A DNA stretch of 20,711 bases from a virus. A model generated the notes under the pieces. That model was not told the origin of the DNA and did not search any database. It worked only from the letters and a program-made list of their open reading frames with translations. Position 1 is the first letter of the stretch. Every line of letters starts with the position of its first letter. The stretch covers positions 1 to 20,711 of IMG/VR virus record IMGVR_UViG_3300022542_000311; one strand, given 5' to 3'. The translations under genes and the position numbers were made by a program. Of the stretch, positions 1 to 17,281 are shown piece after piece.

Positions 1-34
1 GCTGCCCGTGTTCCGCTTAATTTTCTTGTTATCT
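1..34 (+). repeat. 3-prime part of an attC-like site
   Basis: The window opens inside this element. Visible are a possible L-prime arm (GCTGC at 1-5) and a terminal box GTTATCT at 28-34. The stretch TTGTTATCTTTTAATT (27-42) is repeated exactly at 20590-20605, after the attC-like site at the other end of the window. The first gene starts 24 bases after the GTTATCT box. The 5-prime half lies outside the window, so its pairing cannot be checked. Confidence 0.5.
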
Positions 35-57
35 TTTAATTATTTTTGAGGATTTTT

Positions 58-216
58 ATGAAAACATTTGTAGCAACAACAGAAGAAAGATACGTTTGGA
101 CTTGCCCTTACTGTGGAGAAATATGCGACGATGAGTGCGAAGATCCAGAGGATTCCGAACTGGTAACTTGCGAGCATTGCGGAAAAGATGCTAAATGTGA
201 GCGTACTGACAGATAA
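58..216 (+). CDS. Small zinc-ribbon protein, first cassette gene
   Basis: A 52-residue ORF starts at ATG 58, with a GAGG Shine-Dalgarno 6 bases upstream. Two CxxC knuckles, CPYC near residues 15-18 and CEHC near 38-41, plus nearby extra cysteines, indicate a zinc ribbon. The middle is strongly acidic. The stop codon TAA (214-216) lies inside the AGATAAC box of the following attC-like site, as often happens in integron cassettes where gene and attC abut. No specific function can be assigned; such mini zinc ribbons are common in phages and may bind nucleic acid or a host protein. The gene is shorter than 60 codons but has good start, SD and motif support. Confidence 0.7.
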   Translation: MKTFVATTEERYVWTCPYCGEICDDECEDPEDSELVTCEHCGKDAKCERTDR

Positions 217-342
217 CGGATGTAATAACCTGCACCAAGCATTAAAAGCAGGAGACTTGGAGCAACCAAGAAACCATTTAACAATAAGGAACGTGGCAAA
301 ACCCGGACGTGCTTGGTGTCTGTGTTAATTGCCTTGTTAGGT
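211..342 (+). repeat. attC-like recombination site 1
   Basis: The element runs from AGATAAC (211-217) to GTTAGGT (336-342), which fits the attC core GTTRRRY. Inside is a perfect 8-base inverted repeat, CACCAAGC (233-240) and GCTTGGTG (311-318), placed like the L boxes, with variable sequence between the arms. Length (132 bp) is similar to the long attC sites of Vibrio. It shares conserved flanks with site 2: GACAGATAACG then AATAACCT on the left, TCTGTGTT then TTGTTA on the right. Spacers between R and L boxes (about 15 bases) are longer than the usual unpaired central spacer, so it is not a textbook attC. Confidence 0.65.
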
Positions 343-346
343 TTTT

Positions 347-631
347 ATGGAATTTAATAATGTGTACATTGGTGAACTTGTGCATGCATTAAGCACTTAT
401 GACACCGTCCCTCCGATGATGGAAGCGTTGCTTGTTGAAGATTACAGAAAGGTGCTCGCAAAGAGCAAAGTAACAGTCAAGGATTTCCGTGAGTTTTCGC
501 TGGAGGTTCTTGCATTAAGAAAAAACGGTTTGTGTGAAGAATCGGTAAAAGGCTGGTTAAACAACAGTAAAAATAAATTGACCTCTATTTTTACCGAAAA
601 ATGCAGAAGAGCTGATTGTAAGGCAACCTAA
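347..631 (+). CDS. Cassette gene, unknown 94-residue protein
   Basis: The ORF starts at ATG 347, five bases after the GTTAGGT box, in the same TTTTTATG context as the first and third cassette genes. No strong Shine-Dalgarno is present, only GTTAGG. The protein is predicted helical, acidic in the first half and Lys/Arg-rich near the end, with no membrane segment or recognised motif. Its TAA stop (629-631) lies inside ACCTAAC (626-632), the exact reverse complement of the box in front of the gene. The frame stays open after this stop for 13 more codons to a second TAA inside AGATAAC at 668-674. I do not recognise the family. Confidence 0.62.
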   Translation: MEFNNVYIGELVHALSTYDTVPPMMEALLVEDYRKVLAKSKVTVKDFREFSLEVLALRKNGLCEESVKGWLNNSKNKLTSIFTEKCRRADCKAT

Positions 632-632
632 C
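626..632 (+). repeat. R-double-prime-like box of the second cassette
   Basis: ACCTAAC is the exact reverse complement of GTTAGGT at 336-342, the box in front of the same gene. It marks where the attC of this cassette should begin. No complete attC partner arm follows directly; another AGATAAC box starts 36 bases later. Confidence 0.5.
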
Positions 633-667
633 AGGGAACTATGCAGAAAGGTAATTATTCTTATGAC

Positions 668-791
668 AGATAACGTTTGAAATAACCTTCCTGCCCCAGG
701 CAAACCAGAAACTTTAAGCGTGGCAGAAACCTAAAACAAATAACTGGAGAACGGGCGTGTGAGTGGGTCTGTGTTTATATGCTTGTTATGT
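668..791 (+). repeat. attC-like recombination site 2
   Basis: The element runs from AGATAAC (668-674) to GTTATGT (785-791), 124 bp. It shares GACAGATAACG and AATAACCT on the left and GTCTGTGTTTAT plus TTGTTA on the right with site 1, so the two are homologous. The inner inverted repeat is weak: only CCCA (near 695-698) against TGGG (near 764-767) is obvious. Its left box AGATAAC does not match the box at the start of the preceding gene, which instead matches ACCTAAC at 626-632, so the region may be a composite of two attC remnants. Confidence 0.55.
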
Positions 792-798
792 GATTTTT

Positions 799-1116
799 AT
801 GAGTTGTTGGTCAAAAGAGCAATTGGAAAACATGCTTGAGGATGTCGTTAATGAACTTGATTTGTCTGAATTAGCGATTGAGAAGCATGGCCCATTGGGT
901 ACAGCTCCGGCAAAGTTGGTAAGGTTAGTACTGGATCAGAAAGACCGAGAGATAGATATTTTAAGGAATGGTGGCAGGGTCTTGATAAAGCAACCAGAAC
1001 TTATTTGCCCTAATTGTGGCCATTACCCACTAACTTTAGAAGGCACAGCAACATTAGGCACTCCAAAAGACAGAAAGTCATACTGCGATGTGTGCTCATA
1101 CGAAGAAAAGTTTTAG
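799..1116 (+). CDS. Cassette gene, protein with C-terminal zinc ribbon
   Basis: The chosen start is ATG 799, giving 105 residues. An in-frame GTG at 763 would put the start inside the attC-like site, whereas ATG 799 follows its GTTATGT box by 7 bases in the TTTTTATG context shared with the other cassettes. The N-terminal two thirds look helical and acidic. The C-terminal third has CPNC near residues 75-78 and CDVC near 97-100, a two-knuckle zinc ribbon like those of nucleic-acid-binding or metal-sensing adaptors. The stop (TAG 1114-1116) is followed after one base by CCATAAC, the next site. No function is recognised; it may be a phage or host accessory gene. Confidence 0.68.
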   Translation: MSCWSKEQLENMLEDVVNELDLSELAIEKHGPLGTAPAKLVRLVLDQKDREIDILRNGGRVLIKQPELICPNCGHYPLTLEGTATLGTPKDRKSYCDVCSYEEKF

Positions 1117-1117
1117 A

Positions 1118-1220
1118 CCATAACGGCCATAATCAGGGGCAAGCGAGAGTTACATCCCTAAATGTTGGGTAAAGCTGAGAGACTGGGAGACTGGGAGACT
1201 GGGATTCTTGCCTGTTCTCA
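1118..1220 (+). repeat. Degenerate attC-like site 3
   Basis: CCATAAC (1118-1124) matches the reverse complement of the box before the preceding gene at 6 of 7 bases. CAGGGGCAAG (1134-1143) and CTTGCCTG (1207-1214) form an inverted repeat with a two-base bulge, resembling attC L boxes with extrahelical bases. The right end reads GTTCTCA (1214-1220), which does not fit GTTRRRY, so the site is probably truncated or decayed. Between the arms is an 8-base tandem repeat (1179-1202). Confidence 0.45.
1179..1202 (+). repeat. Tandem repeat, three copies of GAGACTGG
   Basis: Three perfect head-to-tail copies of the 8-mer GAGACTGG lie inside the third attC-like element, immediately before its right arm. 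They may reflect slippage in the variable terminal region of the site. Confidence 0.85.
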
Positions 1221-1657: not shown

Positions 1658-1826
1658 AGCTACTTCCAAAAAAGAGGTCACTATATTCTTGGTTCTATCA
1701 GGACAGGAGGCAATAATGATCAAGAATATGTGTCAGAATCATTTAGACTCTGGTAAAGAATCTAAACCTGATTACGAAATTCGAATAGGTATCTATAATG
1801 AACTCAATAGAGAATTACATAAATGA
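1650..1826 (+). CDS. Unknown 58-residue protein
   Basis: This short ORF fills what would otherwise be a 165-base gap before queE. ATG 1650 has AAGGAG about 10 bases upstream, and the stop TGA (1824-1826) overlaps the queE start as ATGA. The protein starts MAKATSKKEV, then has a hydrophobic strand, a helix, and an acidic C-terminal part. The fit between neighbours, with overlaps at both ends, is the main evidence that it is real. No family recognised. Confidence 0.6.
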   Translation: MAKATSKKEVTIFLVLSGQEAIMIKNMCQNHLDSGKESKPDYEIRIGIYNELNRELHK

Positions 1827-2464
1827 AAATCAACTCAATTTATCCCACTATCAGTGGTGAAGTAGGTGTGGTTATTCCACAAGGGCACCCTTGTCTTATT
1901 ATCCGTACTCAGGGATGTAATTTAAAATGCAGTTATTGTGATGCTCCAGAAACACAAGATGTTTCTTATGGGAACGATTATTCAATCGAAGATCTTATGG
2001 TAATCATTCAAAAATACAAACTTCCTGTTCTTTTGACAGGAGGGGAGCCTTTGTTGCAACGAGATGTGTCCGATCTCATTCAATATTGTGTGGATGAGAA
2101 GATTCCTATCCAGATAGAAACAAATGGCACTTATAAGCTTCCTGACATAAAATCAAGACTGGTCAGTTTCATAGTAGATCATAAATTTGGACAAGTCAGG
2201 GAGGTCGATTATCTACATGATGTTGGGAGTAATGATTATGTCAAATTTGTTGTTCAGGATAATGGTCAACTGGTGAGAGCACATTCTATTATTATGGGTC
2301 ACAGAAGAACTCATGTCAACTGGGCAATTTCTCCTGTACAATATCCCAATAGTGTGTTAAATGAAATGACCACCTTTACGGAAGAAGTAGCGAGATATTT
2401 GATCGTGAATAAGGTTGAGGCAGTTATTAACATTCAGATACATAAATTAATTAATTTTCCTTGA
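1823..2464 (+). CDS. queE: 7-carboxy-7-deazaguanine synthase (QueE), radical SAM enzyme
   Basis: QueE converts 6-carboxytetrahydropterin to 7-carboxy-7-deazaguanine using S-adenosylmethionine and a 4Fe-4S cluster. The 213-residue protein is of normal QueE length. It has CxxxCxxC at C32, C36 and C39 (GCNLKCSYCD), which binds the cluster, the SAM-binding GGEP motif at about 73-76, an IETNGT segment near 97-102, and the N-terminal IYPTISGE segment typical of QueE. Translation is probably coupled to the preceding gene through the ATGA overlap, since no good SD is present. It precedes folE and queC, with which it would supply preQ0 for DNA modification. The last part (about residues 170-213) is more divergent than the core. 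Confidence 0.92.
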   Translation: MKINSIYPTISGEVGVVIPQGHPCLIIRTQGCNLKCSYCDAPETQDVSYGNDYSIEDLMVIIQKYKLPVLLTGGEPLLQRDVSDLIQYCVDEKIPIQIETNGTYKLPDIKSRLVSFIVDHKFGQVREVDYLHDVGSNDYVKFVVQDNGQLVRAHSIIMGHRRTHVNWAISPVQYPNSVLNEMTTFTEEVARYLIVNKVEAVINIQIHKLINFP

Positions 2465-2489
2465 TTTTATTCCCTATAAGGAATAGTAT
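2461..2489 (+). promoter_or_regulatory. Putative sigma-70 promoter with palindrome in its spacer
   Basis: TTGATT (2461-2466) and TAGTAT (2484-2489) are separated by exactly 17 bases. The spacer contains the inverted repeat TATTCC (2468-2473) and GGAATA (2480-2485), which could be a repressor operator or a small hairpin. The -35 box overlaps the queE stop codon. The region 2490-2554 is AT-rich leader. The -10 match is moderate (4 of 6). Confidence 0.45.
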
Positions 2490-2554
2490 TATATTATACA
2501 AACAGTTACACATAGAGAGGTGCATAGGTTATTTAATCAAAAACAAATACATAT

Positions 2555-2779
2555 ATGGAGGTGATGATCATTGAGGTTCATGTGCATAAATTGAATTGTT
2601 TTAGATGTGGGCATAAATGGATTCCAAGAAAGGAAGATGTGAGACTTTGTCCAAAATGTAAAAGTGCTTATTTTGATAGGCCGAAAACTGATAAAGAAAA
2701 CTCACTTAAAACTAATTCTAAAGAAAAGGAGAAACAAGATGGCGGAAGTAAAAACAGCCGACTTAAAAGTCGTAATTAA
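2555..2779 (+). CDS. Zinc-ribbon protein, 74 residues
   Basis: The N-terminal half carries a compact zinc ribbon: CFRC near residues 15-18 and CPKC near 32-35, with GHKWIPR between, a pattern of small nucleic-acid-binding ribbons in archaea and phages. The C-terminal half is a low-complexity Lys/Ser/Asn tail. The start is uncertain. The only good SD (GGAGGTGA at 2557-2564) lies on top of the first ATG at 2555 and just before the ATG at 2564, so initiation may occur at a downstream non-ATG codon in frame such as ATT 2570. The gene overlaps the start of the next gene (2739) in a different frame. It is the first gene after the putative promoter at 2461. Confidence 0.68.
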   Translation: MEVMIIEVHVHKLNCFRCGHKWIPRKEDVRLCPKCKSAYFDRPKTDKENSLKTNSKEKEKQDGGSKNSRLKSRN

Positions 2780-3401
2780 AGAAATTAATTCCCTGAAGAT
2801 CAAAGGGGTGTCAACAATCCGAACAGTCGGAATCAGTCGTGTTAATATGGAAAAGACCTTCCTTGCAGCCGTTAACACAGCCTCAGATAAGGGCATGGAA
2901 GAAAAGCTCTCTGATGATTGTGTCAATATTTACAACGATATTATGGAAGTAAAGGAAGCAAAGGAGGCTGAAGGTGGTGATGCTGGTGAAAAGAAAAAGC
3001 CTACTGCTGAAAAGAAAGCTACCGATAAAAAGCCTGTTGAAAAGAAAGCTGATGCTGCCGCAAAAAAGAAAGCTGATGCTGCTGCAAAAAAGAAAGCTGA
3101 TGCTTCCGCAAAAAAGAAAGCTTCTGATAAAAAGCCTGTTGAAAAGAAAGAACCTGCTGAACGTTCCTGTTATGATCATGTCCCTGGTAAACAGACTGGT
3201 ATCCTTGATGAATCCCTTCGTGAAGGTGGTACTGTAGCAGAAATCATGGAAGCTGCCGGTGTCAAACGTCCTCGTGTTATGGCACATATCAAATATCTTC
3301 GTGATACTTGTGGACTGACTATTGTTTTCAAAGAAAACAAAAAGGGAGACAAACTCCTTGACCACTACAAAGTGAAGGAAGAGATCTATCGCAAGCCCTG
3401 A
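2739..3401 (+). CDS. Histone-H1-like Lys/Ala-rich DNA-binding protein with C-terminal winged-helix-like domain
   Basis: ATG 2739 is preceded by AAGGAG at ideal spacing, giving 220 residues; an upstream in-frame ATG at 2664 lacks an SD and would overlap the previous gene further. Residues 1-75 form a small folded domain with no match I can name. Residues about 85-145 are a Lys/Ala/Glu linker containing three 8-residue repeats of the type ADAAAKKK, flanked on both sides by DKKPVEKK, like the tails of eukaryotic H1 or bacterial H1-like proteins. Residues about 160-215 look like a helix-turn-helix or winged helix (GTVAEIMEAAGVKRPRVMAH). It probably binds DNA non-specifically and may compact or organise the phage genome, or act as a regulator. 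A strong terminator follows. Confidence 0.75.
   Translation: MAEVKTADLKVVIKEINSLKIKGVSTIRTVGISRVNMEKTFLAAVNTASDKGMEEKLSDDCVNIYNDIMEVKEAKEAEGGDAGEKKKPTAEKKATDKKPVEKKADAAAKKKADAAAKKKADASAKKKASDKKPVEKKEPAERSCYDHVPGKQTGILDESLREGGTVAEIMEAAGVKRPRVMAHIKYLRDTCGLTIVFKENKKGDKLLDHYKVKEEIYRKP
3048..3119 (+). repeat. Three tandem 24-bp repeats inside the H1-like gene
   Basis: Three head-to-tail copies of a 24-base unit starting GCTGATGCT encode three ADA(A/S)AKKK repeats. The block is flanked by two copies of a segment encoding DKKPVEKK (around 3024-3047 and 3126-3149). Copy number could vary between relatives. Confidence 0.85.
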
Positions 3402-3424
3402 TTAGATCACATATATTCCAGTAT

Positions 3425-3465
3425 ATAGGGCAGAGTATTTGTTACACTCTGCCCTATTTGTTTTT
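3425..3465 (+). terminator. Rho-independent terminator
   Basis: ATAGGGCAGAGT (3425-3436) and ACTCTGCCCTAT (3446-3457) form a perfect 12-bp stem with a 9-base loop, followed by TTGTTTTT. It sits between the H1-like gene and folE and would end the first transcription unit. Confidence 0.88.
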
Positions 3466-3477
3466 AGGAGAGAAATT

Positions 3478-4071
3478 ATGGTAACCCCTATTTTTAGTGA
3501 AGAAACAGTAACACGAGCGATTTCTATGCTCTTAACTGGATTAGGAATACAGTTAGATGATCCTAATTTTAAAGACACTCCAACAAGAGTGATGCGTTCT
3601 TTCAAAGAACAGTGTGATGGATTGTATAATCTCGAAAGAGAAATCGAAAAGATCCTGAGTACTACCTTTCCCTCTGAAGGATATAATGGGATGATAGTTG
3701 AGACTGGTATCACAGTCTACTCTCTCTGCCCACATCATCTTCTTCCTGTATCCTACGCTGTTGATATTGGATACATTCCTTCAAAAGATGAAAAAGTCTT
3801 AGGAGCCTCTAAGCTGTCTCGTTCTGCTGAGATACTAGGTAAGCGACCTATCTTGCAAGAATCGTTCACTACAGACATCCTGAAGTGTTTTGAGACTGTT
3901 TCTCCTGAAGGTGTCGCAGTGCTTATCTCAGGGAAGCACCAATGCATGCGTTGCCGGGGCATTAAACAAAAAGATGCAATGCTTCATACTTCTCTGATGA
4001 CAGGGGCATTTGAAATCAATACATCCACAAGGGAGGAGTTCTTCCACCTTGTGAGTAGAGGTTACCGATGA
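3478..4071 (+). CDS. folE: GTP cyclohydrolase I (FolE)
   Basis: This enzyme opens the GTP ring to give 7,8-dihydroneopterin triphosphate, the first step of both folate and 7-deazaguanine synthesis. The chosen start, ATG 3478, has AGGAG 8 bases upstream; the in-frame start at 3439 lies inside the terminator stem. The 197-residue protein shows DTPTRV (about 33-38), the zinc ligand C84 with H86 and H87 in SLCPHHLLP, GASKLSR (about 109-115), QESFT (about 127-131) and the second zinc cysteine C156 in the KHQCMRCRG segment. Length and motifs fit the bacterial type I enzyme. Its stop overlaps the next gene as ATGA. In this setting it most likely feeds preQ0 synthesis. Confidence 0.94.
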   Translation: MVTPIFSEETVTRAISMLLTGLGIQLDDPNFKDTPTRVMRSFKEQCDGLYNLEREIEKILSTTFPSEGYNGMIVETGITVYSLCPHHLLPVSYAVDIGYIPSKDEKVLGASKLSRSAEILGKRPILQESFTTDILKCFETVSPEGVAVLISGKHQCMRCRGIKQKDAMLHTSLMTGAFEINTSTREEFFHLVSRGYR

Positions 4072-4361
4072 TTGCAACACAGAATCACAACGCAACAGAC
4101 GTTGTAATGGTTGATCTATGGAACTACTCAACAGTAGAATCTGAAAATCTTCACTATAAAGGAATGGAAAAATGGATTAAAACCCAATACATACTTGATA
4201 TGATTCTGAAGTCAATTGAAACAATGGTGAATCTAGGCAGACAATGGACTGCTGTTAAATATTATATGTTCCAAAGAAGAACTTCCTACTTTCTCAGGAC
4301 AATGTTCAGTGTGAGTGGGTATCTGTCTAAAAAGATCCGCAGAATAAGGAAAGATAAATGA
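4068..4361 (+). CDS. Unknown 97-residue protein between folE and queC
   Basis: The gene overlaps folE and queC by four bases each (ATGA), a strong sign that it is expressed with them. The protein is predicted helical, with a basic C-terminus (KKIRRIRKDK) and several aromatic residues. It lacks the cysteine and histidine motifs of QueD, the one preQ0 enzyme not found in the window, so I do not assign that role. No membrane helix or known fold is evident. Its position suggests a part in the modification pathway, but that is inference only. Confidence 0.65.
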   Translation: MIATQNHNATDVVMVDLWNYSTVESENLHYKGMEKWIKTQYILDMILKSIETMVNLGRQWTAVKYYMFQRRTSYFLRTMFSVSGYLSKKIRRIRKDK

Positions 4362-5065
4362 CATACAAAGAAGGGAATTTAACTGAAATGAGAGGCGGAG
4401 CATCTGAGGAAATGATACTCTGCTTCTCAGGAGGAATTGACAGTTTAATAGCATGGCATTACCTAGGGAAACCAAAGAGTGTTTTTTTTCATTGTACTGA
4501 TTATTCCACAATAGAACTTTCTTCAGCCCTACGACTCAATCAGGGAATCATTATTGATAGATCCCTTTCCCTATCTAAAATCCAAGAAGGAGATAATGCC
4601 TACATTCCTCACCGTAACCTACTCTTTGCAAGTATAGCAAGTAACTATGGATCTACTGTAGTTATCGCAGGACTGAAGGATGATATGGTTGAAGATAAGA
4701 ACCCGAAAGCATTCAACCTAATGTCTGAAGTACTGTCAGCTACATCGAAGAAAGATATCAATGTGCTCTCTCCTTTTTGGGGGATGACTAAGGCTGAGAT
4801 TGTGGCATGGTTTCTCGCAAATGTTCCTGATGCAAAGGCGATGTTGGGCATATCAGTCTCTTGTTATGCAGGAGAAGCAAATTGTGGCATGTGTCCATCT
4901 TGTTTCAGAAAGGCTTGTGCCTTATGGGAAAATGATATCAAGACACATTTCAGAGATGATTTACTCATGAGACACTACTATAACAGAGCTTTGCAGTGGA
5001 AGTATGATGAAGCAAGGTGTCGGTCAATAATCAAATTCGTACAAGGACAAAAGGAATGGCAGTAA
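4358..5065 (+). CDS. queC: 7-cyano-7-deazaguanine (preQ0) synthase (QueC)
   Basis: QueC uses ATP and ammonia to convert 7-carboxy-7-deazaguanine to preQ0. The 235-residue protein has the PP-loop ATP pyrophosphatase motif SGGIDS at about residues 24-29, the HRNLLF segment near 85-90, and a C-terminal zinc site with four cysteines, C169, C176, C179 and C182. All are standard QueC features, and length is normal. ATG 4358 overlaps the preceding stop and has AAGGA about 9 bases upstream; the first 18 residues are an extension beyond the usual start, and an internal ATG at 4388 or 4412 is possible. It is followed with a 10-base overlap by the HAD gene. Confidence 0.93.
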   Translation: MTYKEGNLTEMRGGASEEMILCFSGGIDSLIAWHYLGKPKSVFFHCTDYSTIELSSALRLNQGIIIDRSLSLSKIQEGDNAYIPHRNLLFASIASNYGSTVVIAGLKDDMVEDKNPKAFNLMSEVLSATSKKDINVLSPFWGMTKAEIVAWFLANVPDAKAMLGISVSCYAGEANCGMCPSCFRKACALWENDIKTHFRDDLLMRHYYNRALQWKYDEARCRSIIKFVQGQKEWQ

Positions 5066-5364
5066 TATACGTTGATCTGGATGGTACTCTTACTAAAGAA
5101 ACTGAAGGATTTGGTGACAAGATATTCATGAACAGAACACCTCGGAAAAAGAAGATCAGACAAATAAATGAGATTAGAGAAGATGGTCACCAAATCATCA
5201 TCTGGACAGCAAGACTTCCTGAGGATCTAAAAGTCACTATCAAGTGGTTAGAGAAACATGGGGTAAAATACGATGGAATACTCCTGAACAAACCCATGTT
5301 CGATCTTTACGTGTGCGATAAGGCACTTAATGTGGAGGATCTCCACAAGTTCACAATAGAGTGA
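5056..5364 (+). CDS. HAD-family phosphatase-like protein
   Basis: ATG 5056 gives 102 residues with the catalytic DLDGT motif at about residues 7-11; an earlier in-frame ATG at 5017 would add 13 residues inside queC and lacks a good SD. HAD motif I (DxDGT, nucleophile and acid/base Asp), motif II (WTAR, near 50-53) and a late DLYVCDKA segment (near 82-90) supplying the magnesium-binding Asp are all present. The protein is a capless minimal HAD, of a size common in phages. HAD members hydrolyse phosphate esters; the substrate here is unknown. The position between queC and the methyltransferase/dpdA pair suggests nucleotide or modified-base metabolism. Confidence 0.82.
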   Translation: MAVIYVDLDGTLTKETEGFGDKIFMNRTPRKKKIRQINEIREDGHQIIIWTARLPEDLKVTIKWLEKHGVKYDGILLNKPMFDLYVCDKALNVEDLHKFTIE

Positions 5365-5379
5365 TTTGGGATCACTATC

Positions 5380-5633
5380 ATGTCTTTATCTTATCTTCAG
5401 GTAAGAAGCTTATTTGATTATAATTCCGAAACAGGATATCTTTATTGGAAAATATCACCAAACAATAATGATGTGTTAAATTGAGAATCAATTATAAAAC
5501 ATTTCATATTGGATACTATAGTGATTTTGATGAAGCAGTAGCCCATAGACTAGCGGTTGAGCAATGTGTAGGATGGGAAGGATGTGACCTGTCTTCTCCT
5601 GCTTACCAATATATAAAGGAGAACATTAAATGA
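5380..5633 (+). pseudogene. Decayed HNH/AP2 homing endonuclease
   Basis: The first part (ATG 5380 to TGA 5484, 34 residues) reads like the N-terminus of the intact endonuclease at 16165 (LFDYNSETGYLYWK against ILHYDEKTGVFTWK). From about 5484, in another frame, the text resumes at the AP2-like C-terminal part: DEAVAHRLAVEQC and SSPAYQYIKE correspond to residues about 143-172 of the intact copy. About 90 codons, including the whole HNH catalytic core, are missing and the frame is shifted, so no active enzyme can be made. The end of the remnant (TGA 5631-5633) overlaps the methyltransferase start as ATGA, and its last codons contain the AAAGGAG ribosome site of that gene. Confidence 0.86.
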
Positions 5634-6199
5634 CTTTACAATTGATTAGCAGAAGTGAGGGAAAATTGCCTACTTACATGAACTTTGGATGTGGCAACAC
5701 AATACACGATGATACTGTAAACATTGATACAAGTGTGAGTGAAACTATTGCAATGAAAGCAAAGAGTTTCGGGAAAAATGCATGGCTATACAAAGGGTTG
5801 TGGACTGATCCACATGAATTCCCTGTAGATCACTTCAATATGGTACTGGCTCATGATGTCCTTGAGCATATACATCCAGATGCAATAGGGAACATGCTGT
5901 ATTGCTTTCGCTGTTGTATGAAAATAGGAGGAATACTGGAAATTAATGTTCCTGATTTCGAACACATTGCACAGTTGATAGCAAATCACAAGATAGATGA
6001 TGAGATGTCCATTGATTGGTTGAGTCAGTTCAGAAGATTAGAACTCATATGGATGGCTCCTTATATTCATGGAGGAATAGGACATCAATCTATATGGACA
6101 AAGGCAATGGCAAGGTATCGTCTTGAGGGGGAAGGCTTCATGATCACAAACATGAAGACTATAGATTTGTCCCTATCTATTACAGCGAAGAGGGTGTAA
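5630..6199 (+). CDS. SAM-dependent methyltransferase-like protein
   Basis: The 189-residue protein has a class I methyltransferase layout: NFGCGN at about 18-23 (SAM-binding glycine motif I), VNID near 31-34 (acidic end of strand 2), LAHDVLEHI near 73-81, and GGILEINVPDFEHI near 104-117. This pattern resembles predicted methyltransferases whose substrates are small molecules, sugars or bases. ATG 5630 has AAAGGAG at good spacing, supplied by the end of the endonuclease remnant. The stop overlaps the dpdA start (TAATG). Co-expression with the transglycosylase suggests it may methylate a 7-deazaguanine base or precursor, but no sequence motif proves this. Confidence 0.75.
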   Translation: MTLQLISRSEGKLPTYMNFGCGNTIHDDTVNIDTSVSETIAMKAKSFGKNAWLYKGLWTDPHEFPVDHFNMVLAHDVLEHIHPDAIGNMLYCFRCCMKIGGILEINVPDFEHIAQLIANHKIDDEMSIDWLSQFRRLELIWMAPYIHGGIGHQSIWTKAMARYRLEGEGFMITNMKTIDLSLSITAKRV

Positions 6200-7068
6200 T
6201 GCCAAGAATCATATTAGACAGCGGAGCATTTTCGGCTTTTCAGAACAATACTGAAGTGGATGTGTATGAATATATTGATTACATCAAGGAGACCAAGGCA
6301 GAATTGTATATGAACCTTGATGTGATTGGTAGTTCTGAGAAGTCATGGGAAAATCAGAAGATCATGGAGAAAGCAGGACTCACTCCACTTCCTATTTTTC
6401 ACGCTGATGCTCCCATTAAGTACCTTCATCGATGCCTTGAATACGATTATATTGCTCTAGGAGGCATGGCATCTGGTTCCCATGAGAATACCAGAAGAGC
6501 TTTTTTAGACTCCAGCTTTGCTGTAATTTGCGATACTCCTGATAGAATGCCTAAAGTAAAAGTACATGGTTTAGGCCTTGCTTCCCCTCTCCTTGTGGCC
6601 CGCTATCCATGGTTCAGTTGTGATACTGCCTCAGGAATTCACTACGGCAGATATGGAATTATTATTATTCCCACTAAAGATAGATCTGGCAAATTAGATT
6701 ACCTTAAACCTCCTTATTCCTTATATATTACAGAAAGATCTACTGCAAAGCAAACGGAAGGTAGGCATTTTTCAAATATATCCCTAGATGAGCAGAAATG
6801 GATTCGTAATTATGTTAAAAAACAAGGCTTTGAATGGGGAAAAGTTGAATATTATGCAGTTGAAGATCCTTTAAAACACACCCTTGCAGAAGGGGAAAGA
6901 TATTTGACTAAAACACACCAATTAGTAGAAAAAGTAATAGAAGATGGTATTATATCTAATGGTGTACTCAGAGACTTTTTCAATATTGATTTTTATATGC
7001 AAATGGAGAAGGCTATTCCTGAATGGCCTTGGGCCTTTAACCCTAGACAAAGGAGTATGTTTTGGTAA
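6199..7068 (+). CDS. dpdA: DpdA-like DNA 7-deazaguanine transglycosylase
   Basis: DpdA proteins are relatives of tRNA-guanine transglycosylase that exchange guanine in DNA for a 7-deazaguanine base such as preQ0. The 289-residue protein has LDSGAFSAF at the N-terminus (D7 a likely catalytic Asp), NLDVIG near 39-44, YIALGG near 84-89, HGLG at 123-126, and RYPWFSCDTAS near 135-145 with D142 as the likely second catalytic Asp. These blocks match the phage DpdA group rather than tRNA enzymes, and it is shorter than bacterial Tgt (about 370 residues). The zinc-binding CxCxxC of Tgt is not visible. Context with folE, queE and queC strongly supports the call. Confidence 0.85.
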   Translation: MPRIILDSGAFSAFQNNTEVDVYEYIDYIKETKAELYMNLDVIGSSEKSWENQKIMEKAGLTPLPIFHADAPIKYLHRCLEYDYIALGGMASGSHENTRRAFLDSSFAVICDTPDRMPKVKVHGLGLASPLLVARYPWFSCDTASGIHYGRYGIIIIPTKDRSGKLDYLKPPYSLYITERSTAKQTEGRHFSNISLDEQKWIRNYVKKQGFEWGKVEYYAVEDPLKHTLAEGERYLTKTHQLVEKVIEDGIISNGVLRDFFNIDFYMQMEKAIPEWPWAFNPRQRSMFW

Positions 7069-8063: not shown

Positions 8064-9054
8064 AAAAGTGATCCCTGCTATAGATACTAAGGGACTGGTT
8101 GAACAGACAAATCACCTTATTTTCAGTGATGGATTATTAGCTGCTTACAATGGGAAGATATCTATCTCGACTCCTGTTGATCTTGACTTTGAATGTTCGG
8201 TACCTGCTCAAGATCTTCTCAAAGTGGTTAAATCTATTGACGATAAAGAGATGGAAATCACCCTCGAAGATGAGATACTCCATATCGTTTCTGATAATGT
8301 ACGTGCTGCTTTGTCTACTGATATAGAAGAAGAGGCCGCTCTCAAGGCAATCAGAAAGTTTGAACTTGATGATCTATATGATGAAAAGGGGGCGGAAGTT
8401 CCTGAAAACTTTATTATGGGATTAGAGTTATGTCAATATTCTGCTTCAAGAAATGCGGATGATATGCAGAATCTCAACTGCATCCTTGCAAATGGCAATA
8501 CAATGACTGCTGGAGATGGATACAGATGTACTTTTATTGAACTTGATGTCGAAATGGACAAAATGCTTATACCCGCTTCCTCTGCTTCTAACCTGACTAA
8601 ATTCGACCCTCTTCAGTACATTATTTCAGGCGGGTGGGTACACATGATTGATTCATTTGATACTGTATTTTCTTTCATTATGACAAAGGGTGACTTTCCT
8701 GATATTGCAAGGGTAATTGATTCATTTGAAGCAGATCTATCTGTTGATCTTCCTGATGGATTGAGAGATGTAGCTCATGATCTTGGAAATATAACTGATA
8801 GCCATTTGGAAAGCTTCCGAATCCTTGAGGTCAATATATGTGATGAAGAAATTGAATGCTTTATTGAAAAAACTGGTGTGTCTGTCACAAAGACTATCCC
8901 CTTTGAAGGTAATGAAATTGGTGCATCTTTCATGATCAACTCTGTTATGCTTGCTTCTATCTTGGCACAAACAAATACAATGGAATTAAGTGAAAAATTC
9001 GCCCTGTTCTCTGATGAGACTTTTAAGTGCCTCATTGGCTTAGTGGAATCATAA
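8032..9054 (+). CDS. Divergent DNA polymerase sliding clamp (DnaN-like)
   Basis: The 340-residue protein has the size and layout of a DnaN-type clamp, which encircles DNA and tethers the polymerase. Recognisable points are the repeated strand pattern of three clamp domains, NTMTAGDGYRCTFIEL near 154-169 (the ATDGHRLA position of DnaN), KMLIPASSASNLTK near 178-191, GDFPDIARVI near 221-230, and FMINSVMLASIL near 301-312, close to where DnaN has its domain-3 helix. ATG 8032 has AAGGA about 7 bases upstream. The clamp loader at 12094 and polymerase at 9276 support it. Identity is clear by pattern but sequence is far from bacterial DnaN. Confidence 0.8.
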   Translation: METKELLETIEKVIPAIDTKGLVEQTNHLIFSDGLLAAYNGKISISTPVDLDFECSVPAQDLLKVVKSIDDKEMEITLEDEILHIVSDNVRAALSTDIEEEAALKAIRKFELDDLYDEKGAEVPENFIMGLELCQYSASRNADDMQNLNCILANGNTMTAGDGYRCTFIELDVEMDKMLIPASSASNLTKFDPLQYIISGGWVHMIDSFDTVFSFIMTKGDFPDIARVIDSFEADLSVDLPDGLRDVAHDLGNITDSHLESFRILEVNICDEEIECFIEKTGVSVTKTIPFEGNEIGASFMINSVMLASILAQTNTMELSEKFALFSDETFKCLIGLVES

Positions 9055-9251
9055 TGAAATTCATATTTTTAGTCCTGATGATTCCTATTGTAGGAGTAGC
9101 GTGTATCCTACATCGGACATTTGTTTCTATCTGTGCTTTCATATTACTGATGCACACATTAAATAAATATGGGATTGATGGTACCACGCCTGATGCGATA
9201 GAGGCAGAAGTAAAGAAAATTAAAAGAATGATCAAGGAGTGGATGAAATGA
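9054..9251 (+). CDS. Small membrane protein
   Basis: ATG 9054 overlaps the clamp stop (TAATG) and gives 65 residues; an upstream in-frame start at 9027 would lie within the clamp gene. Residues 2-19 and about 25-41 are hydrophobic and form one hairpin of two membrane helices, or a signal anchor plus a helix. The C-terminal third is a Lys/Glu amphipathic helix likely facing the cytoplasm. It sits between clamp and polymerase genes. Function is unknown; a link between replication and the membrane is possible but unproven. Confidence 0.62.
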   Translation: MKFIFLVLMIPIVGVACILHRTFVSICAFILLMHTLNKYGIDGTTPDAIEAEVKKIKRMIKEWMK

Positions 9252-9275
9252 AATGAGATATGTAAAGGGGAATAT

Positions 9276-11900
9276 ATGATGTTGATAAGAAATATGTTCG
9301 CTCCTGAAGGAGACAAAGGGCTATGTGAGGATTGTGCTAAGTGCAAAACTCATGAGAAATGCAAAACTCCTTACATGGATTATATAGGGGAGGGGAAACT
9401 AAACTGTCTTATCATTGGAGAATCTCCAAGCATGACGGATGATGATGCAGGAGTCCCCCTCTCTGGTTCAGATGGAAGATTTCTGAAGAGAAGATTATCT
9501 AAATTAGGACTGAGGCTTGAAGAAGATTTTTGGATAACAAATGCAATTATCTGTAAACCACAAAAGAACAAACCTCCTACTGATAGGCAATTAAAACTTT
9601 GCAGAAGGAATCTTATTGAAACCATCGAAGAGTTACAGCCTAGATTTATATGGACATTTGGTAGTATTGCATCAAAGGCGGTAATTCAAAAGGGACTTAA
9701 AAAAGTTTCTGTATCTTCCCTTACAAATAGGATGATACCGTTGAATGAGTATGATGCATGGCTAATGCCCATGTTTGATCCTAAATATTTAATAAGAAAT
9801 GAAAATGATCGCAATCTCCAACAGTATTACTTAAGGAATTTAAAGAATGTTTTAGATTTCATGAAGGAAGATCCAGACCTTCCTTGTGTAAATCCATTTG
9901 ACAAGATAACATTCCTTCGAACACCTGATGAAATAGAAGATTTAATCAACAAACTTATTGATGATGGAACTCCATCATCTTTTGACTTTGAATCAACAGG
10001 ATTGTATCCTTGGATAGAAGGACACAAAACTACTTCAATGGCAATTGCAACTGAAGAAATGTCCTACGCCTTTCCTATTCAACATCCTGAAGCTAAGTTT
10101 ACCCATGAAGAAGAAGATCTTGTAATCGATTCTGTTTGCTACTATCTCGAATCAAAAAAGCTTGAAAAGATCGGGCACAATGTGAACTTTGATAAGAGAT
10201 GGGCATACTGGGCATTAAGTGCAGATCCAGAAGGATTCTTCCCTTGTTCTATGGTTGCTTCGCATATCCTTGATCATAGAAATGGAAATAATAGTCTGAA
10301 GGATCAAGCCTTTCTGAGGTGGGGAATTGTTAATTATGATAAAGCTACTGAGGGCTACATAAAGCAGGTTCCAGGTACTCTTTTTAACAGAATGACAGAA
10401 ATGCCCTTAGATGAACAACTACTGTACGTTGGGGCCGATGCGAAGCTCACTATTAAAACTTATTTAGAACAGTGTGAGGAGTTCACAAAAGGACAAGAAA
10501 GCGCTAATGCATTCTTCATCGACAGCCTTGTACCTCTTTTAGATATTCAAAACAATGGAATCCTGATTGATGTTCCTTATTTCGAACAAGTAGCGAGGGA
10601 TCTTGCAGAAGAAATTGAAGAAATTGAAGAAGAGATTAATAAATCAGATGACGCAGAAAGATATCCGATAATATACAAAGAGCCATTTAATTATTCAAGT
10701 CCGAACTGTCTTAAAAGAATCCTGTTTGAGATGAATGATGTGGAAGCAGTAAAGTTTACAGGCAAAGGGAATGAGTCTGTAGATGAAGAGGCATTAGGAA
10801 AAATTGATTATTGGATGTGTAAAGAAATAGTCAAGGTTCGAAAACTCAAAAAACTCAAAGACACTTACATTAGTCAGTATCTCAGGGGAGAATGTGATGG
10901 TGTTGTTCATCCTGAATTTCCACTACACACTGTTACCAGTTTCAGATCCAGTTGTTGTAATCCCAACATTCAAAATACTCCTAAAAGAAACAAAAAATCT
11001 AAGAAATTAATTCGATCAGGATTTATTACACCTAGGCAATGGAAGGTCTTTGAACTTGACTTCTCAGGTATAGAAGTTTCCACCTCTGCAATGTATCACA
11101 AAGATCCTGGGTTTATGGAGTATCTTTTCACTCCAGGCACTGATATGCATAGAGATGTCACTTGTGATTTATGGATGCTTCCTACAAATGTGCTTCTCAA
11201 TCCCGAATACACTAAAGAACAGAAAGAACTTGCTGGTATACTGCGATTCTTTGGTAAGAACCTTTGGACATTTGCTCAGTTCTATGGTGATTACTTCGGT
11301 AGCTGTGGAGAGAACCTATGGAAGATTTGTCTATTTGAAGAGAAATTAGTATTACCTGATGGTACTCTTCTTAAAGATTGGATATTTGATCAAGGCATCA
11401 CTGAGCTAGGAACAATGCACAAGGGGCAGCCTACTCCTGGCAGCTTCCTTGCTCACTGCAAAGAAGTTGAGAATAAGATGTGGAATGAAAGATTCCCTAT
11501 CTATACTCAGTGGAAAAAAGATATCAATGATTTCTATAATGAACATGGTTATACTGAGTCTCTTTTAGGATTTAGATTTGATGGATACATGGATAGGAAA
11601 CAGACAACAAACTACCTAATTCAGGGTACTGCTTTTCATCTACTGATGTGGTGCCTAGCAAGGGTTAATGAGAGACTGAAGAAGGAGAAATGGGAATCCT
11701 ATCTAATAGGAGAGGTACATGATTCTATGATAGGTTATGTCCATCCTGCTGAAGAACAGGATCTATGGCCTATGATGAAAAAGATTTGTACTGTTGATGT
11801 AGTCAAAAAGTTTCCTTTTATCAATGTACCTTTAGGGATTGAAATCGAAACATCTGAACCAGATGGCAATTTTGCTAACTTAACGGAGATTGAGATATGA
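9276..11900 (+). CDS. Family A DNA polymerase with N-terminal UDG-like domain and 3-5 exonuclease
   Basis: The 874-residue replicative polymerase has three parts. Residues about 15-195 resemble the iron-sulfur uracil-DNA glycosylase superfamily: C17, C20, C23 and C29, then IIGESPS (46-52) and TFGS (127-130). The usual HP motif near its end is replaced by FDPKYL. Residues about 210-400 are a DEDDy proofreading exonuclease: D237, E239, N302, D306, Y384, D388. Residues about 410-874 are the polymerase: motif A DFSGIE with D595, GTDMHRD near 621-627, motif B R657, K661, Y670, G671, and motif C VHDS with H815 and D816. Motif B has one extra residue between Lys and Tyr, and motif C ends in Ser instead of Glu. 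Start codons 9276 and 9279 are both possible. Confidence 0.94.
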   Translation: MMLIRNMFAPEGDKGLCEDCAKCKTHEKCKTPYMDYIGEGKLNCLIIGESPSMTDDDAGVPLSGSDGRFLKRRLSKLGLRLEEDFWITNAIICKPQKNKPPTDRQLKLCRRNLIETIEELQPRFIWTFGSIASKAVIQKGLKKVSVSSLTNRMIPLNEYDAWLMPMFDPKYLIRNENDRNLQQYYLRNLKNVLDFMKEDPDLPCVNPFDKITFLRTPDEIEDLINKLIDDGTPSSFDFESTGLYPWIEGHKTTSMAIATEEMSYAFPIQHPEAKFTHEEEDLVIDSVCYYLESKKLEKIGHNVNFDKRWAYWALSADPEGFFPCSMVASHILDHRNGNNSLKDQAFLRWGIVNYDKATEGYIKQVPGTLFNRMTEMPLDEQLLYVGADAKLTIKTYLEQCEEFTKGQESANAFFIDSLVPLLDIQNNGILIDVPYFEQVARDLAEEIEEIEEEINKSDDAERYPIIYKEPFNYSSPNCLKRILFEMNDVEAVKFTGKGNESVDEEALGKIDYWMCKEIVKVRKLKKLKDTYISQYLRGECDGVVHPEFPLHTVTSFRSSCCNPNIQNTPKRNKKSKKLIRSGFITPRQWKVFELDFSGIEVSTSAMYHKDPGFMEYLFTPGTDMHRDVTCDLWMLPTNVLLNPEYTKEQKELAGILRFFGKNLWTFAQFYGDYFGSCGENLWKICLFEEKLVLPDGTLLKDWIFDQGITELGTMHKGQPTPGSFLAHCKEVENKMWNERFPIYTQWKKDINDFYNEHGYTESLLGFRFDGYMDRKQTTNYLIQGTAFHLLMWCLARVNERLKKEKWESYLIGEVHDSMIGYVHPAEEQDLWPMMKKICTVDVVKKFPFINVPLGIEIETSEPDGNFANLTEIEI

Positions 11901-12082
11901 TCTGTACTAATTGTGAGGATTCAGGATATGAATGGGAAACAGTTGATGCCTGTGGCAAATGTAAGAAGGGTACAGGAGTACAACATAAACAGAATCAGGA
12001 ACACTTAAAATGGCACAATAAAGAAGTTAGAAGATTGAGAAAGGAAATCAAGGAATACCAAAGGAACATAAAACTTCCATAA
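11897..12082 (+). CDS. Small zinc-finger protein with basic helix
   Basis: ATG 11897 overlaps the polymerase stop as ATGA. The 61-residue protein has CTNC (residues 3-6) and CGKC (about 19-22), a short zinc knuckle similar to DnaJ-type CxxC modules, followed by a Lys/Arg-rich helix (about 38-57) with heptad-like spacing. It may be a DNA- or protein-binding accessory of the replisome. The next gene starts 12 bases downstream. No family recognised. Confidence 0.66.
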   Translation: MICTNCEDSGYEWETVDACGKCKKGTGVQHKQNQEHLKWHNKEVRRLRKEIKEYQRNIKLP

Positions 12083-12093
12083 GGAGAGACAAG

Positions 12094-13017
12094 ATGAGTC
12101 AGGCACTACACCTAAAACATAGACCACAAGAATTTGATCAAATGGCAGGAAACGAAACATCTATTGAAATGCTTTGTTCTGTACTTGATAGAGACTATGA
12201 AAAGATTCCACGTTCTCTATTATTTACAGGAGAGTCAGGAACAGGCAAGACTACGATAGTGAGAATAGTGAAGGAAGAACTTGCCTGTTCTGATGCTGAC
12301 TTCCACTTATTCAATACAAGCAATACAAGAGGAATAGATACCATAAGAGAAATGCAAAAGCTCTCTAGACTTGCTCCTATGGATGGAGACTTAAAGATCT
12401 TCTTCCTGGAGGAATGTCACCAACTGACTAAGCCAGCACAAGATGCTATGCTCTTGATGCTTGAAGATGCTCCACCTAATACATTCTTTTTTCTTGCTAC
12501 TACGAACCCTGAGAAGCTGAAGAAGGCAGTCAAAACACGCTGTACAACGATCAAACTTAAAACTCTATCCTATAAGGTCATTACTGACTATCTACGCACT
12601 ATCACAGAGGCAGAAGGAATTGAAGACTATCCGAAAAAGATCCTGACTGCTATCGCTAAAGCTTCTCAAGGATCTTGCAGGGAAGCTGTGAAGATCCTTG
12701 ATCAAGTTATTGATATTGAAGATGATGAAACAGCTCTTGAAGCTGTAGAATCTTCTCTTGGTTCTGAATCAGATATAGCGGAACTGTGCAAAGCCCTATT
12801 GAATGGAAGTAAGTGGAAGGTGATTGCTGAGATTTTGAAAACATTGGATATGGAACCTGAATCAGCAAGATTAGTGATATTAAAGTGGTTCAATAAGGTA
12901 CTTCTCGACAAAGGAGAGCAAAGAGTAGCTGAAATGATGGAACTCTTTGAGAAAAATTACTATGACAGTGGAAAAGCAGGATTAACCAATTCCTGTTATG
13001 CAGCATCATTGCTTTAA
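12094..13017 (+). CDS. Clamp loader AAA+ ATPase subunit
   Basis: The 307-residue protein belongs to the DnaX/RFC small-subunit group, which opens and loads the sliding clamp on primed DNA. It has HRPQEFDQMAGNE (about 9-21, the box II-like start), Walker A GESGTGKTT at 46-54, Walker B with FFLEECH near 103-109 (usual DE replaced by EE), sensor 1 LATTNP near 134-139, the arginine-finger TRC motif at 148-150, and sensor 2 near SCREAVKIL (about 193-201). ATG 12094 follows AAGGAG with good spacing. No zinc-binding module of bacterial DnaX is present, as is usual in phage loaders. A hairpin overlaps its stop codon. Confidence 0.9.
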   Translation: MSQALHLKHRPQEFDQMAGNETSIEMLCSVLDRDYEKIPRSLLFTGESGTGKTTIVRIVKEELACSDADFHLFNTSNTRGIDTIREMQKLSRLAPMDGDLKIFFLEECHQLTKPAQDAMLLMLEDAPPNTFFFLATTNPEKLKKAVKTRCTTIKLKTLSYKVITDYLRTITEAEGIEDYPKKILTAIAKASQGSCREAVKILDQVIDIEDDETALEAVESSLGSESDIAELCKALLNGSKWKVIAEILKTLDMEPESARLVILKWFNKVLLDKGEQRVAEMMELFEKNYYDSGKAGLTNSCYAASLL

Positions 13018-13050
13018 ATGCACTCAGAGGGCATTTAATCATTGATTTTT
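13014..13050 (+). terminator. Weak terminator-like hairpin
   Basis: TTAAATGC (13014-13021) and GCATTTAA (13031-13038) form an 8-bp stem around a 9-base loop. A T-rich stretch (ATTGATTTTT) ends at 13050. The stop codon of the clamp loader is within the left arm. AT-rich stem and interrupted T tract make it weak; it overlaps the following promoter. Confidence 0.45.
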
Positions 13051-13070
13051 AATGAAAGTGCTGATATGAT
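13042..13070 (+). promoter_or_regulatory. Strong sigma-70 promoter with extended -10
   Basis: TTGATT (13042-13047) and TATGAT (13065-13070) are separated by exactly 17 bases, and TGA precedes the -10 as in extended -10 promoters. It lies in the largest intergenic gap of the replication block (249 bases), after a hairpin. Transcription would start near 13077 and run through a structured leader into the recombination genes. Confidence 0.72.
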
Positions 13071-13077
13071 ATTTCTT

Positions 13078-13266
13078 ATAAGTAAATTTTTCATCCCTGT
13101 TGATCTTGCAGGATGCGAAGTACTAATTCAGATGGACTGCAATCTGTCTGTGTTGTTGCTTTGTCTGCTTTAATTGACTTGAACTCCTTTTCGATAAGCG
13201 GGCAGGGATGAATCCTATTAGGGCATTTATAATGCCTACACATTAATCCTATTCTAGGAGGGAAAA
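13078..13266 (+). ncRNA. Putative structured leader RNA
   Basis: This non-coding stretch follows the promoter. TTCATCCCTG (13090-13099) and CAGGGATGAA (13203-13212) are perfect 10-base complements 103 bases apart, able to close a long-range stem. Inside, CAGAT and ATCTG (13130-13147 region) form a small hairpin. Downstream, GGCATT and AATGCC (13223-13236 region) form another, before the SD AGGAGGG of the next gene. No known riboswitch, tRNA or small RNA pattern is recognised. It may be a regulatory leader or a small RNA. Confidence 0.45.
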
Positions 13267-13533
13267 ATGCCAAAACAGCCTAATTTCAAATACGATTGTG
13301 GAGATGAGGTAAAAGACAAAATCACAGGATTTGTTGGTATTGTCAATTGCCGAACACAATGGTTAAACAATTGCAGCACGTATGGGGTGAAGTCTCGAAA
13401 GCTTAAGGATGGAGCTATGCTGAGTCAGGAATCATTTGATGAACCACAGCTTGAACTTGTGAAGCGTAAAGCACTTGAGCCTAAACAAAATACAGGCGGG
13501 CCTTGTGATTCAGTCAAACGCACAAACAGATAG
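13267..13533 (+). CDS. Conserved phage protein of unknown function
   Basis: ATG 13267 follows AGGAGGG, a near-perfect ribosome site. The 88-residue protein has a beta-rich first 60 residues with GDEVKDKITGFVGIV and RTQWLNNCSTYGV, which I recognise as a pattern shared by small phage proteins of unknown role with a likely SH3-like barrel. The C-terminus (about 65-88) is a basic, probably disordered tail. It heads the operon with the UvsY-like, SSB and RecA genes, under the promoter at 13042, so a role in DNA transactions is possible. Confidence 0.75.
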   Translation: MPKQPNFKYDCGDEVKDKITGFVGIVNCRTQWLNNCSTYGVKSRKLKDGAMLSQESFDEPQLELVKRKALEPKQNTGGPCDSVKRTNR

Positions 13534-13543
13534 GAGGTGATAA

Positions 13544-14053
13544 GTGAGCTTTAAAGAAGATGTCAGCATCGACAGGCATAGTCTTGATTATGAATGGTTA
13601 AGACAAGCCGATCTCTTTCATAAGTACTCAGAAGACTATGCTAACGCCATGTTTGAACGAGATAAAAAGAAGGAAAGATTGACTTTAGTAAAAGCTCAAA
13701 TTGATGGTGATATTCGATTAGATCCAGAATCTTATGGTTTTACAGGAAAGCCTACTGAACCTGCCATAGCTTCTCTCATTATACAAGATGAACGTTATGA
13801 GGTTGCCAACAGTGTATACCTTGAGGCTGTAAGGGATATGAATGTAGTGGCAGGAGCTAAAATAGCTATGGAGCATAAAAAAACTGCTCTTGAGGTTCTT
13901 GCTAAATTATACCTTTCCGGATACTGGGGAGAAGCCCGCATTCCTGATGAGGCTAGGAAGAAATACGAAACTGAAAATGAATCTACCGCGTTGAACTCAA
14001 GTTCAAGATTACAAAGTCGGTTAAAAAGTAAAAGAGGAAATACAGATGGCTAG
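13544..14053 (+). CDS. UvsY-like recombination mediator (probable)
   Basis: The start is GTG 13544, supported by AGGAGGTGA directly upstream at good spacing. The 169-residue protein is almost all helical, with a YEWLRQADLFHKYSEDYANA start (about 17-36), a charged middle, and a long helix around 105-135, features I associate with phage proteins often annotated as UvsY-like. UvsY helps load RecA/UvsX onto SSB-coated single strands. Gene order mediator, SSB, RecA supports this. The tail (about 150-169) is Ser/Arg/Lys-rich. The family link is by pattern memory; no catalytic motif exists to confirm it. Its end overlaps the SSB gene by 8 bases. Confidence 0.6.
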   Translation: MSFKEDVSIDRHSLDYEWLRQADLFHKYSEDYANAMFERDKKKERLTLVKAQIDGDIRLDPESYGFTGKPTEPAIASLIIQDERYEVANSVYLEAVRDMNVVAGAKIAMEHKKTALEVLAKLYLSGYWGEARIPDEARKKYETENESTALNSSSRLQSRLKSKRGNTDG

Positions 14054-15086
14054 AACATCGAGATTCAGAAGTAAAAAAGGATATAAAGAGGGCTTGCAGA
14101 AAAGAACAGAGCAAGCTACAGGAAGTAGAGGAGGAAAATGGAAGCCTATCTTTCTTTCTACAGCTAAATTTGAAAAATGGACATGCAAAGAGGGTGACCA
14201 TGTTATCGACATCATTCCATATCTTGATGATGATGATATCTTTCAATACAAACTGGAAGTCCTTGTTCATCAGAGAATTGGACCTGATGAAGGAAACTAT
14301 ATTTGCCCAAAAACCTTTGACAGTAAAGCAAACTGTGCTCTCTGTGATTTAAGATCAATGGCTCAGGCTGAGGATAACGAAGCGATGGCGGATCTTCTCC
14401 GTCCCCGTGAACGAGTGATCTACAACATTGTTTGTTATGACAACAACAAAGAAGAGGATAAGGGAGTTCAAGTCTGGGAAGCCTCTGGTTATCTTGCCGA
14501 GGATAACTTTCAAGCAGCAGCCAAAAAGAGACAAAAGGGTGGAGTCAGTAGTAAAATCTCTTTCGCTGATCCTGACGATGGTAGGACTATCAGTTTCGAA
14601 CGAACAGGAAGTGGTGTCGGAACTCGTTATATAGGGTTTGTGATGGAGGAACGTGATGAACCGATTTCAGATGATATTCTGGATGAAGCCTACATATTGG
14701 AAGATCTCATTGATATTCCCTCAGATGAGGTTCTCCAAGAACAGGCTGATATTGTCCTTGGTTCTTTTCGTTCCAATGAAGAAGATGAACAACCTGAAGA
14801 TTCTGATAAGAAGGATAAATCCAGTAAAACATCCTCTCGTATGTCTCGAAGAAGCAAGGGACGTGGGAAGAAGGATGAAAAAGATGAGAAGAACGAAGAA
14901 AAGGAGGAAAAGTCTAAATCTTCTCGAAGACGTACCAGAAGAACCATAGACAAAACAGGTGACTCAGGTACAGGAGATGATGTTCCCATGGATCTTGGAA
15001 AGGATGAAGACAAAGAGGCAGAAGATAAAGAGAAATCATCTGACAGAAAACGTTCAGGTCGTCGTAGAGTAACAAGAAGGAGATGA
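14046..15086 (+). CDS. Single-stranded DNA-binding protein (gp32-like)
   Basis: The 346-residue protein has a gp32-type core: an N-terminal basic arm (1-30), a FLSTAKFEKWTCKEGDHVIDIIPY opening of the OB-fold (about 36-59), and a zinc site with H75, C87, C97 and C100 (CPKTF then CALC). The first 235 residues are the folded part. The tail, about 110 residues, is unusual: it mixes Asp/Glu with Lys/Arg and ends in RRRVTRRR, whereas phage SSB tails normally end acidic to recruit partners. ATG 14046 has GAGG upstream. It lies between the UvsY-like and RecA genes. Confidence 0.78.
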   Translation: MARTSRFRSKKGYKEGLQKRTEQATGSRGGKWKPIFLSTAKFEKWTCKEGDHVIDIIPYLDDDDIFQYKLEVLVHQRIGPDEGNYICPKTFDSKANCALCDLRSMAQAEDNEAMADLLRPRERVIYNIVCYDNNKEEDKGVQVWEASGYLAEDNFQAAAKKRQKGGVSSKISFADPDDGRTISFERTGSGVGTRYIGFVMEERDEPISDDILDEAYILEDLIDIPSDEVLQEQADIVLGSFRSNEEDEQPEDSDKKDKSSKTSSRMSRRSKGRGKKDEKDEKNEEKEEKSKSSRRRTRRTIDKTGDSGTGDDVPMDLGKDEDKEAEDKEKSSDRKRSGRRRVTRRR

Positions 15087-15088
15087 GT

Positions 15089-16881: not shown

Positions 16882-16893
16882 AGAGTAGAAATT

Positions 16894-16954: not shown

Positions 16955-17007
16955 TTTCACAGAATATCAAAAGAGATAATAAACTCTTACAAATGTTGGA
17001 GAAAACA

Positions 17008-17238: not shown

Positions 17239-17281
17239 ATCATGCTAAATATAGTTTTAATAAACCAAGTGCAGGGTGATC

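Follow-up and report, generated by a model that had tools for sequence, protein, structure and literature searches.

The window analysed here is 20,711 bp long and is the entire IMG/VR record IMGVR_UViG_3300022542_000311, a linear fragment, so that the array at its left end is truncated by the contig end. Three small + strand ORFs (52, 94 and 105 aa) are interleaved there with related elements of about 125 bp, and the next phage gene lies at 1234. The replication module of the window encodes a DNA polymerase (PHROG E 1e-82), a clamp, a clamp loader, a UvsX-like recombinase, a single-strand binding protein, an exonuclease, an endonuclease VII and a DNA ligase. Genes for QueE-like, GTP cyclohydrolase, QueC-like and queuine tRNA-ribosyltransferase-like (DpdA-type) proteins are grouped at 1823-7065, a set that suggests 7-deazaguanine modification of the phage DNA. 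A sister contig (IMGVR_UViG_3300022540_000360, 25,112 bp; L002/L005) is 99.9% identical across window positions 9382-20463 and extends further right. Isolate phages gave no DNA-level match to the window (blastn), and no match was found in Rfam. The features of the array and of the related region at the right end are given below; for the elements, the strand is the one bearing the features of an attC bottom strand.

1 to 34, + strand: E0, a right arm truncated at the contig end (L'' CTTAATT 16-22, R'' GTTATCT 28-34)
58 to 216, + strand: ORF1, a 52-aa zinc-ribbon-like protein (weak zinc-ribbon matches)
211 to 342, + strand: E1, 132 bp, a two-armed attC-like site (R' AGATAAC 211-217, L' TAATAAC 223-229, L'' GTTAATT 324-330, R'' GTTAGGT 336-342)
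347 to 631, + strand: ORF2, 94 aa, no family or relative found
626 to 632, + strand: stand-alone ACCTAAC box at the stop of ORF2; it partners the E1 right box perfectly
668 to 791, + strand: E2, 124 bp, likewise attC-like and two-armed (R' AGATAAC 668-674, L' AAATAAC 680-686, L'' GTTTATA 773-779, R'' GTTATGT 785-791)
799 to 1116, + strand: ORF3, 105 aa, with a zinc-ribbon-like C-terminal part (CPNC/CDVC)
1118 to 1217, + strand: E3, a degenerate terminal element (R' CCATAAC 1118-1124, L' TAATCAG 1130-1136)
20463 to 20699, no strand assigned: indel, 237 bp missing from the sister contig, covering E4 and the start of the next gene
20480 to 20597, + strand: E4, degenerate, following the gene for DNA ligase (L' AATCAG 20483-20488, L'' TTGTATT 20579-20585, R'' GTTATCT 20591-20597)

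ORF2 had no match among isolate phages, and its sole match (L003) was rejected as a chance match within a tape-measure-like gene. ORF3 had no match in isolate phages or plasmids. Its residues 1-58 are 83% identical to a gene of phage contig L004 (79% over 109 nt at the DNA level), and this homologue backs the + sense of ORF3. L004 is an unrelated phage contig, the gene matching the N-terminal half of ORF3 lies at 9995-10237, and no attC-like site was called in it by covariance model R1 (described below).

The first-pass annotation had described small genes alternating with related elements of about 100-130 bp, with boxes at the stop codons and just before the next starts. The alternation was confirmed, and E1 and E2 are homologous at both ends. 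The placement of the boxes was confirmed at most junctions: the ORF1 stop falls within the E1 left box, ORF2 starts 4 nt past the E1 right box and ORF3 starts 7 nt past the E2 right box (799 vs 785-791). The E2 left box departs from it, lying 36 nt past the ORF2 stop, at the stop of a 10-codon frame. This frame is contained in a 42-bp unit between ORF2 and E2 (632-673) with ends ACCTAA/C and AGATAA/C, which could be a cassette remnant.

R boxes, inverted repeats with AAC and GTT triplets, are present on both sides of E1 and E2 and on one side each of E0, E3 and E4. The L boxes pair at 6/6 positions in E1 and 5/6 in E2, with an extrahelical base behind the third pair in the L box of the right arm (GTTAATT 324-330 in E1); L-box pairing in E3 and E4 is partial. 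E1 and E2 are built like aadA-type sites, with a 7-nt box, a 5-nt spacer, an L box and one extrahelical base in the right arm. The two elements are 325 bp apart and share two 25-nt repeats (88% and 80% identity). Their left arms are identical at 20/30 positions (p ~7e-6) and their right arms at 21/30 (p ~1e-6), and the likeness runs slightly past the boxes, to TGAC ahead of the left box and to TTTTTATG where the genes start. The E1 right box and the isolated box at the ORF2 stop lie in an inverted repeat (I5, 332-343/625-636).

The remaining elements are less complete. E3 has an inner stem (GGCAAG/CTTGCC) and an 8-bp tandem repeat (1175-1204) and is without a right R box; the left R box of E4 has been lost. 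Sixteen nucleotides at window positions 26-41, beginning in E0, are identical to E4, and the L' string of E4 was found again in E3 and in the sister contig. Related elements thus lie at the other end of the contig and, by the same ligase gene, in the independently assembled sister contig, which supports their location in the phage genome. An inverted repeat between the end of ORF3 (~1003-1022) and E3 (~1125-1144) was set aside as probably a coincidence in a zinc-finger codon string.

Covariance models R1-R3 were built from attC sites of other replicons, namely class 1 cassettes, a Shewanella prophage, Tetrasphaera phage TJE1, phage contig L023 and a Lysobacterales MAG; a Vibrio phage array was kept as an untrained control. 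Two sites found via the window's own arm pattern were included in R2 and omitted from R3, which is broader. The arrays of L023 and L039 were themselves found through the window, and some of their other sites went into all or part of the models. The tool itself describes its E-values as rough. R1 ranked E1 first in the window (11.5 bits, E 0.6) and E2 second (10.1 bits, E 1.3), listed neither with default filters, and gave E4 9.9 bits. Up to E 5, R2 returned E2 (19.7 bits, E 0.018) and E1 (18.5 bits, E 0.034) and nothing else; other phage DNA (82 kb) scored at most 14.0 bits. R3 put E2 at the top (16.6 bits, E 0.053) and E1 in fourth place (9.9 bits, E 2.4); the untrained Vibrio sites scored 19-30 bits with this model. 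E3 was reported by none of the models. The covariance-model search that had been proposed as a check therefore placed E1 and E2 among the best matches of the window, with the predicted ends, at weak scores (E 0.018-2.4). This is moderate model evidence for an attC identity of E1 and E2, and not proof.

Folding of the bottom strand, also proposed as a check, gave modest values. Unconstrained folding did not return an attC hairpin. In a constrained DNA fold the R boxes were paired with a probability of 0.055 (E1) and 0.11 (E2), within the range of known sites (0.004-0.97); the attC form of E1 was not the MFE structure, and E2 was without proper L pairing. Simple arm-complementarity scans separated the sites poorly from background.

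A scan with a degenerate right-arm pattern yielded 19 viral stretches, mostly chance matches in coding sequence. One of them (L023 9047-9154) is a site within a six-site array of another phage contig (IMGVR_UViG_3300031673_006805). In register, E1 matches this site at 24/29 positions of the right arm and at 18/29 of the left arm (p ~8e-5), the left arm not being part of the pattern search that found L023. Five further sites of this array are strong. The array (8193-10419) runs in canonical sense and adjoins genes for a head maturation protease and the major head protein. No integrase was found in the L023 fragment, and the array is apparently a further phage CALIN. A pattern scan of GTDB genomes gave, among chance matches, a Lysobacterales MAG array with two matching sites (similar arm). 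Arm-pattern matches other than L023 and L039 were rejected as mostly chance, in coding sequence, and a scan for the left-arm string AATCAGG added no relatives beyond the sister contig.

Polarity was read from box flanks and from the models. Among known bottom strands, 23 of 26 have AACG following the left box and 25 of 26 have TT in front of the right GTT. On the phage + strand, AACG follows the left box in 5/5 cases (E1, E2, E3 and two elements of the sister contig) and the right boxes read TTGTTA in 4/4 (E0, E1, E2, E4). All R1-R3 matches to E1 and E2 are on the + strand, which is also the coding strand. In the Vibrio phage control, 12 of 14 assignable sites follow their gene in canonical sense, with the folding strand opposite the genes. 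Annotations, judged by eye, also showed the canonical sense for the Shewanella prophage, the P1 class 1 integron and L023. As judged from box flanks and model matches, the coding strand of the window thus carries the attC bottom-strand features. With these features and the genes both on the + strand, and the controls showing the opposite, the sites are inverted relative to the genes, which do not run in the sense of their sites as in a canonical array. The first-pass annotation had assumed a common orientation, and this assumption is not supported. Under inverted polarity a cassette would consist of a site followed by a gene, giving units at 217-673 (E1 and ORF2) and 674-1123 (E2 and ORF3) cut at AA/C of the left boxes.

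The strand choice of attC determines the orientation of the cassette (PMC8946536), and several successive inverted genes therefore call for selection or an unusual origin. Our preferred hypothesis is that co-transcription with the phage operon was selected for. What is unusual about the array is this inverted polarity.

Decay is seen in both genomes. The sister contig has two left arms with no right arm, each behind a gene stop (11256, 11821), so that E3, E4 and these two elements are one-armed. The sole difference seen between the window and the sister contig is the 237-bp indel at E4, which is flanked by 7-bp direct repeats (GAAGCGT, 20456-20462 and 20693-20699) and does not end at G/TT points. 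In the sister contig the ATG after the ligase gene is joined in frame to the remainder of the next gene. The difference looks like a deletion or insertion at short repeats and not like an integrase junction. Breaks between G and TT, expected by the first-pass annotation in relatives, were therefore not found in the one sister contig and one element (E4) compared. From the lost arms and the indel at short repeats, present turnover is probably not driven by an integrase. Viral contigs contained no relatives of QueE or of the gene adjoining the array, so that the main array is left without an empty-site comparison; no relative covering it was found. Neither the window nor the sister contig, both incomplete genomes, contained a tyrosine recombinase (no match to PF00589 in these two fragments).

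In sum of likelihood, the array is probably a decaying, integrase-less cassette cluster (CALIN) captured by the phage, with its genes in phage operons, its sites largely immobile and its attC polarity inverted. E1 and E2, if they are attC sites, supply the at least two close sites without an integrase gene that define a CALIN. The first proposal, attC-type sites that adjoin phage replication genes and are not accompanied by an integrase, is supported by model matches with predicted ends, homology to L023 and L-box pairing. The proposed current mobility is not, given the low scores, the several one-armed elements and an indel that avoids G/TT; the earlier interpretation as a whole is partly supported. 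A phage ancestor would have acquired cassettes of a bacterial integron, either through illegitimate recombination or because an integron integrase of the host used a secondary site. The array genes, on the + strand like the neighbouring phage genes, are presumably co-transcribed with them. E1 and E2, having kept both arms and the extrahelical base, might still serve a host IntI.

A variant that we regard as unlikely, though tenable, is a phage-adapted array in which attC polarity has been systematically reversed, cassettes with antisense genes are kept and expressed by the phage operon instead of an integron promoter, and the sites are still substrates of a host integrase.

Promoter-stem-loop elements of T4-type phages are repeated stem-loops between small variable genes, and the elements of the window resemble them in this respect. 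They could accordingly be an intergenic repeat specific to the phage (a stem-loop, a terminator or a promoter unit) that is attC-like by chance and spreads small genes by homologous recombination. Such an element would fit the occurrence between small variable genes at two places in the genome, the E1/E2 likeness past the boxes (expected of any duplicated intergenic element), a terminator-like stem at the end of E2 and the low attC scores. Against it stand the in-register likeness of both E1 arms to a site of L023, where the cassette array is a true one, and the attC L-box geometry and extrahelical base. Promoter-like sites are also not enriched (3 vs 2.5 in shuffles), and the boxes and spacing, unlike those of the T4-type elements, are of attC type. 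We consider this explanation unlikely.

A canonical mobile array, with sites in gene sense that are cut at G/TT of the right boxes and are exchangeable with host integrons, is distinctly unlikely. Gene starts and stops are placed relative to the boxes as in canonical cassettes, and partner boxes match at 7/7 positions around ORF1 and 6/7 around ORF3. The box-to-start distances (4-7 nt) and the stops within left boxes are indeed the pattern of a canonical array and are awkward with inverted polarity. Against this, the polarity is the opposite one in every model and at every box flank, arms have been lost from several elements, and the sole indel seen is not at G/TT.

An assembly artefact, in which a bacterial integron fragment was fused to a phage contig, would suit the position of the array at the contig end and its G+C (41.3% vs 37.8% for the rest of the window), but is highly improbable, as both the far end of the contig and the sister contig carry related elements, ORF3 has a related gene in a phage contig, and the G+C of the array is inside the range along the contig (33.9-43.2%).

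Cassette clusters in phages have precedents. In a screen of 10,705 phage genomes, Qi et al. 2023 (PMC9892861) found 17 CALINs, some of them in virulent phages, and observed IntI1-dependent recombination in 5/6 tested sites, which establishes the phage-integron route in principle. Tetrasphaera phage TJE1, Pseudoalteromonas phage PH101 and Polaribacter phage P12002L are among the phages with CALINs in that study (PMC9892861); like the window, these virulent-phage arrays combine cassette-type sites and small genes without an integrase. The sites of the window, by comparison, score lower, several are one-armed, and all genes are antisense to the attC polarity. The consulted parts of that paper describe no systematic attC inversion, save for a remark on divergent attC directions in one phage (PMC9892861), and the TJE1 sites were found to be canonical in the present analysis. 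The present array is a further, degenerate case of the phage CALINs already published in 2023 (PMC9892861). The L023 array likewise has no integrase in its fragment and shares both arms of one site with E1, but has six sites (five strong) and canonical-sense genes and adjoins head genes. Bacterial chromosomal integrons (Vibrio, Shewanella, Lysobacterales) have the same box architecture, L-box spacing and extrahelical base, whereas the window is without intI or attI and its polarity to the genes is reversed.

An uncultured phage lineage and L023 are thereby added to the few phages with integron cassette sites, and a shared site type links the two. If the inversion is real and general, it points to a rule of domestication in which phages keep the cassettes with genes oriented along the phage operon. 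From the decay of the sites, phages of this lineage would be mostly a cassette sink and not a platform of active exchange.

Two further repeats were noted in the window. The 3' part of an HNH endonuclease gene is present twice (5517-5621 and 16576-16680; 75% identity), with one copy truncated, and this duplication looks like homing-endonuclease spread. Tandem repeats rich in lysine and alanine are located at 2978-3150, within an ORF ending at 3401.
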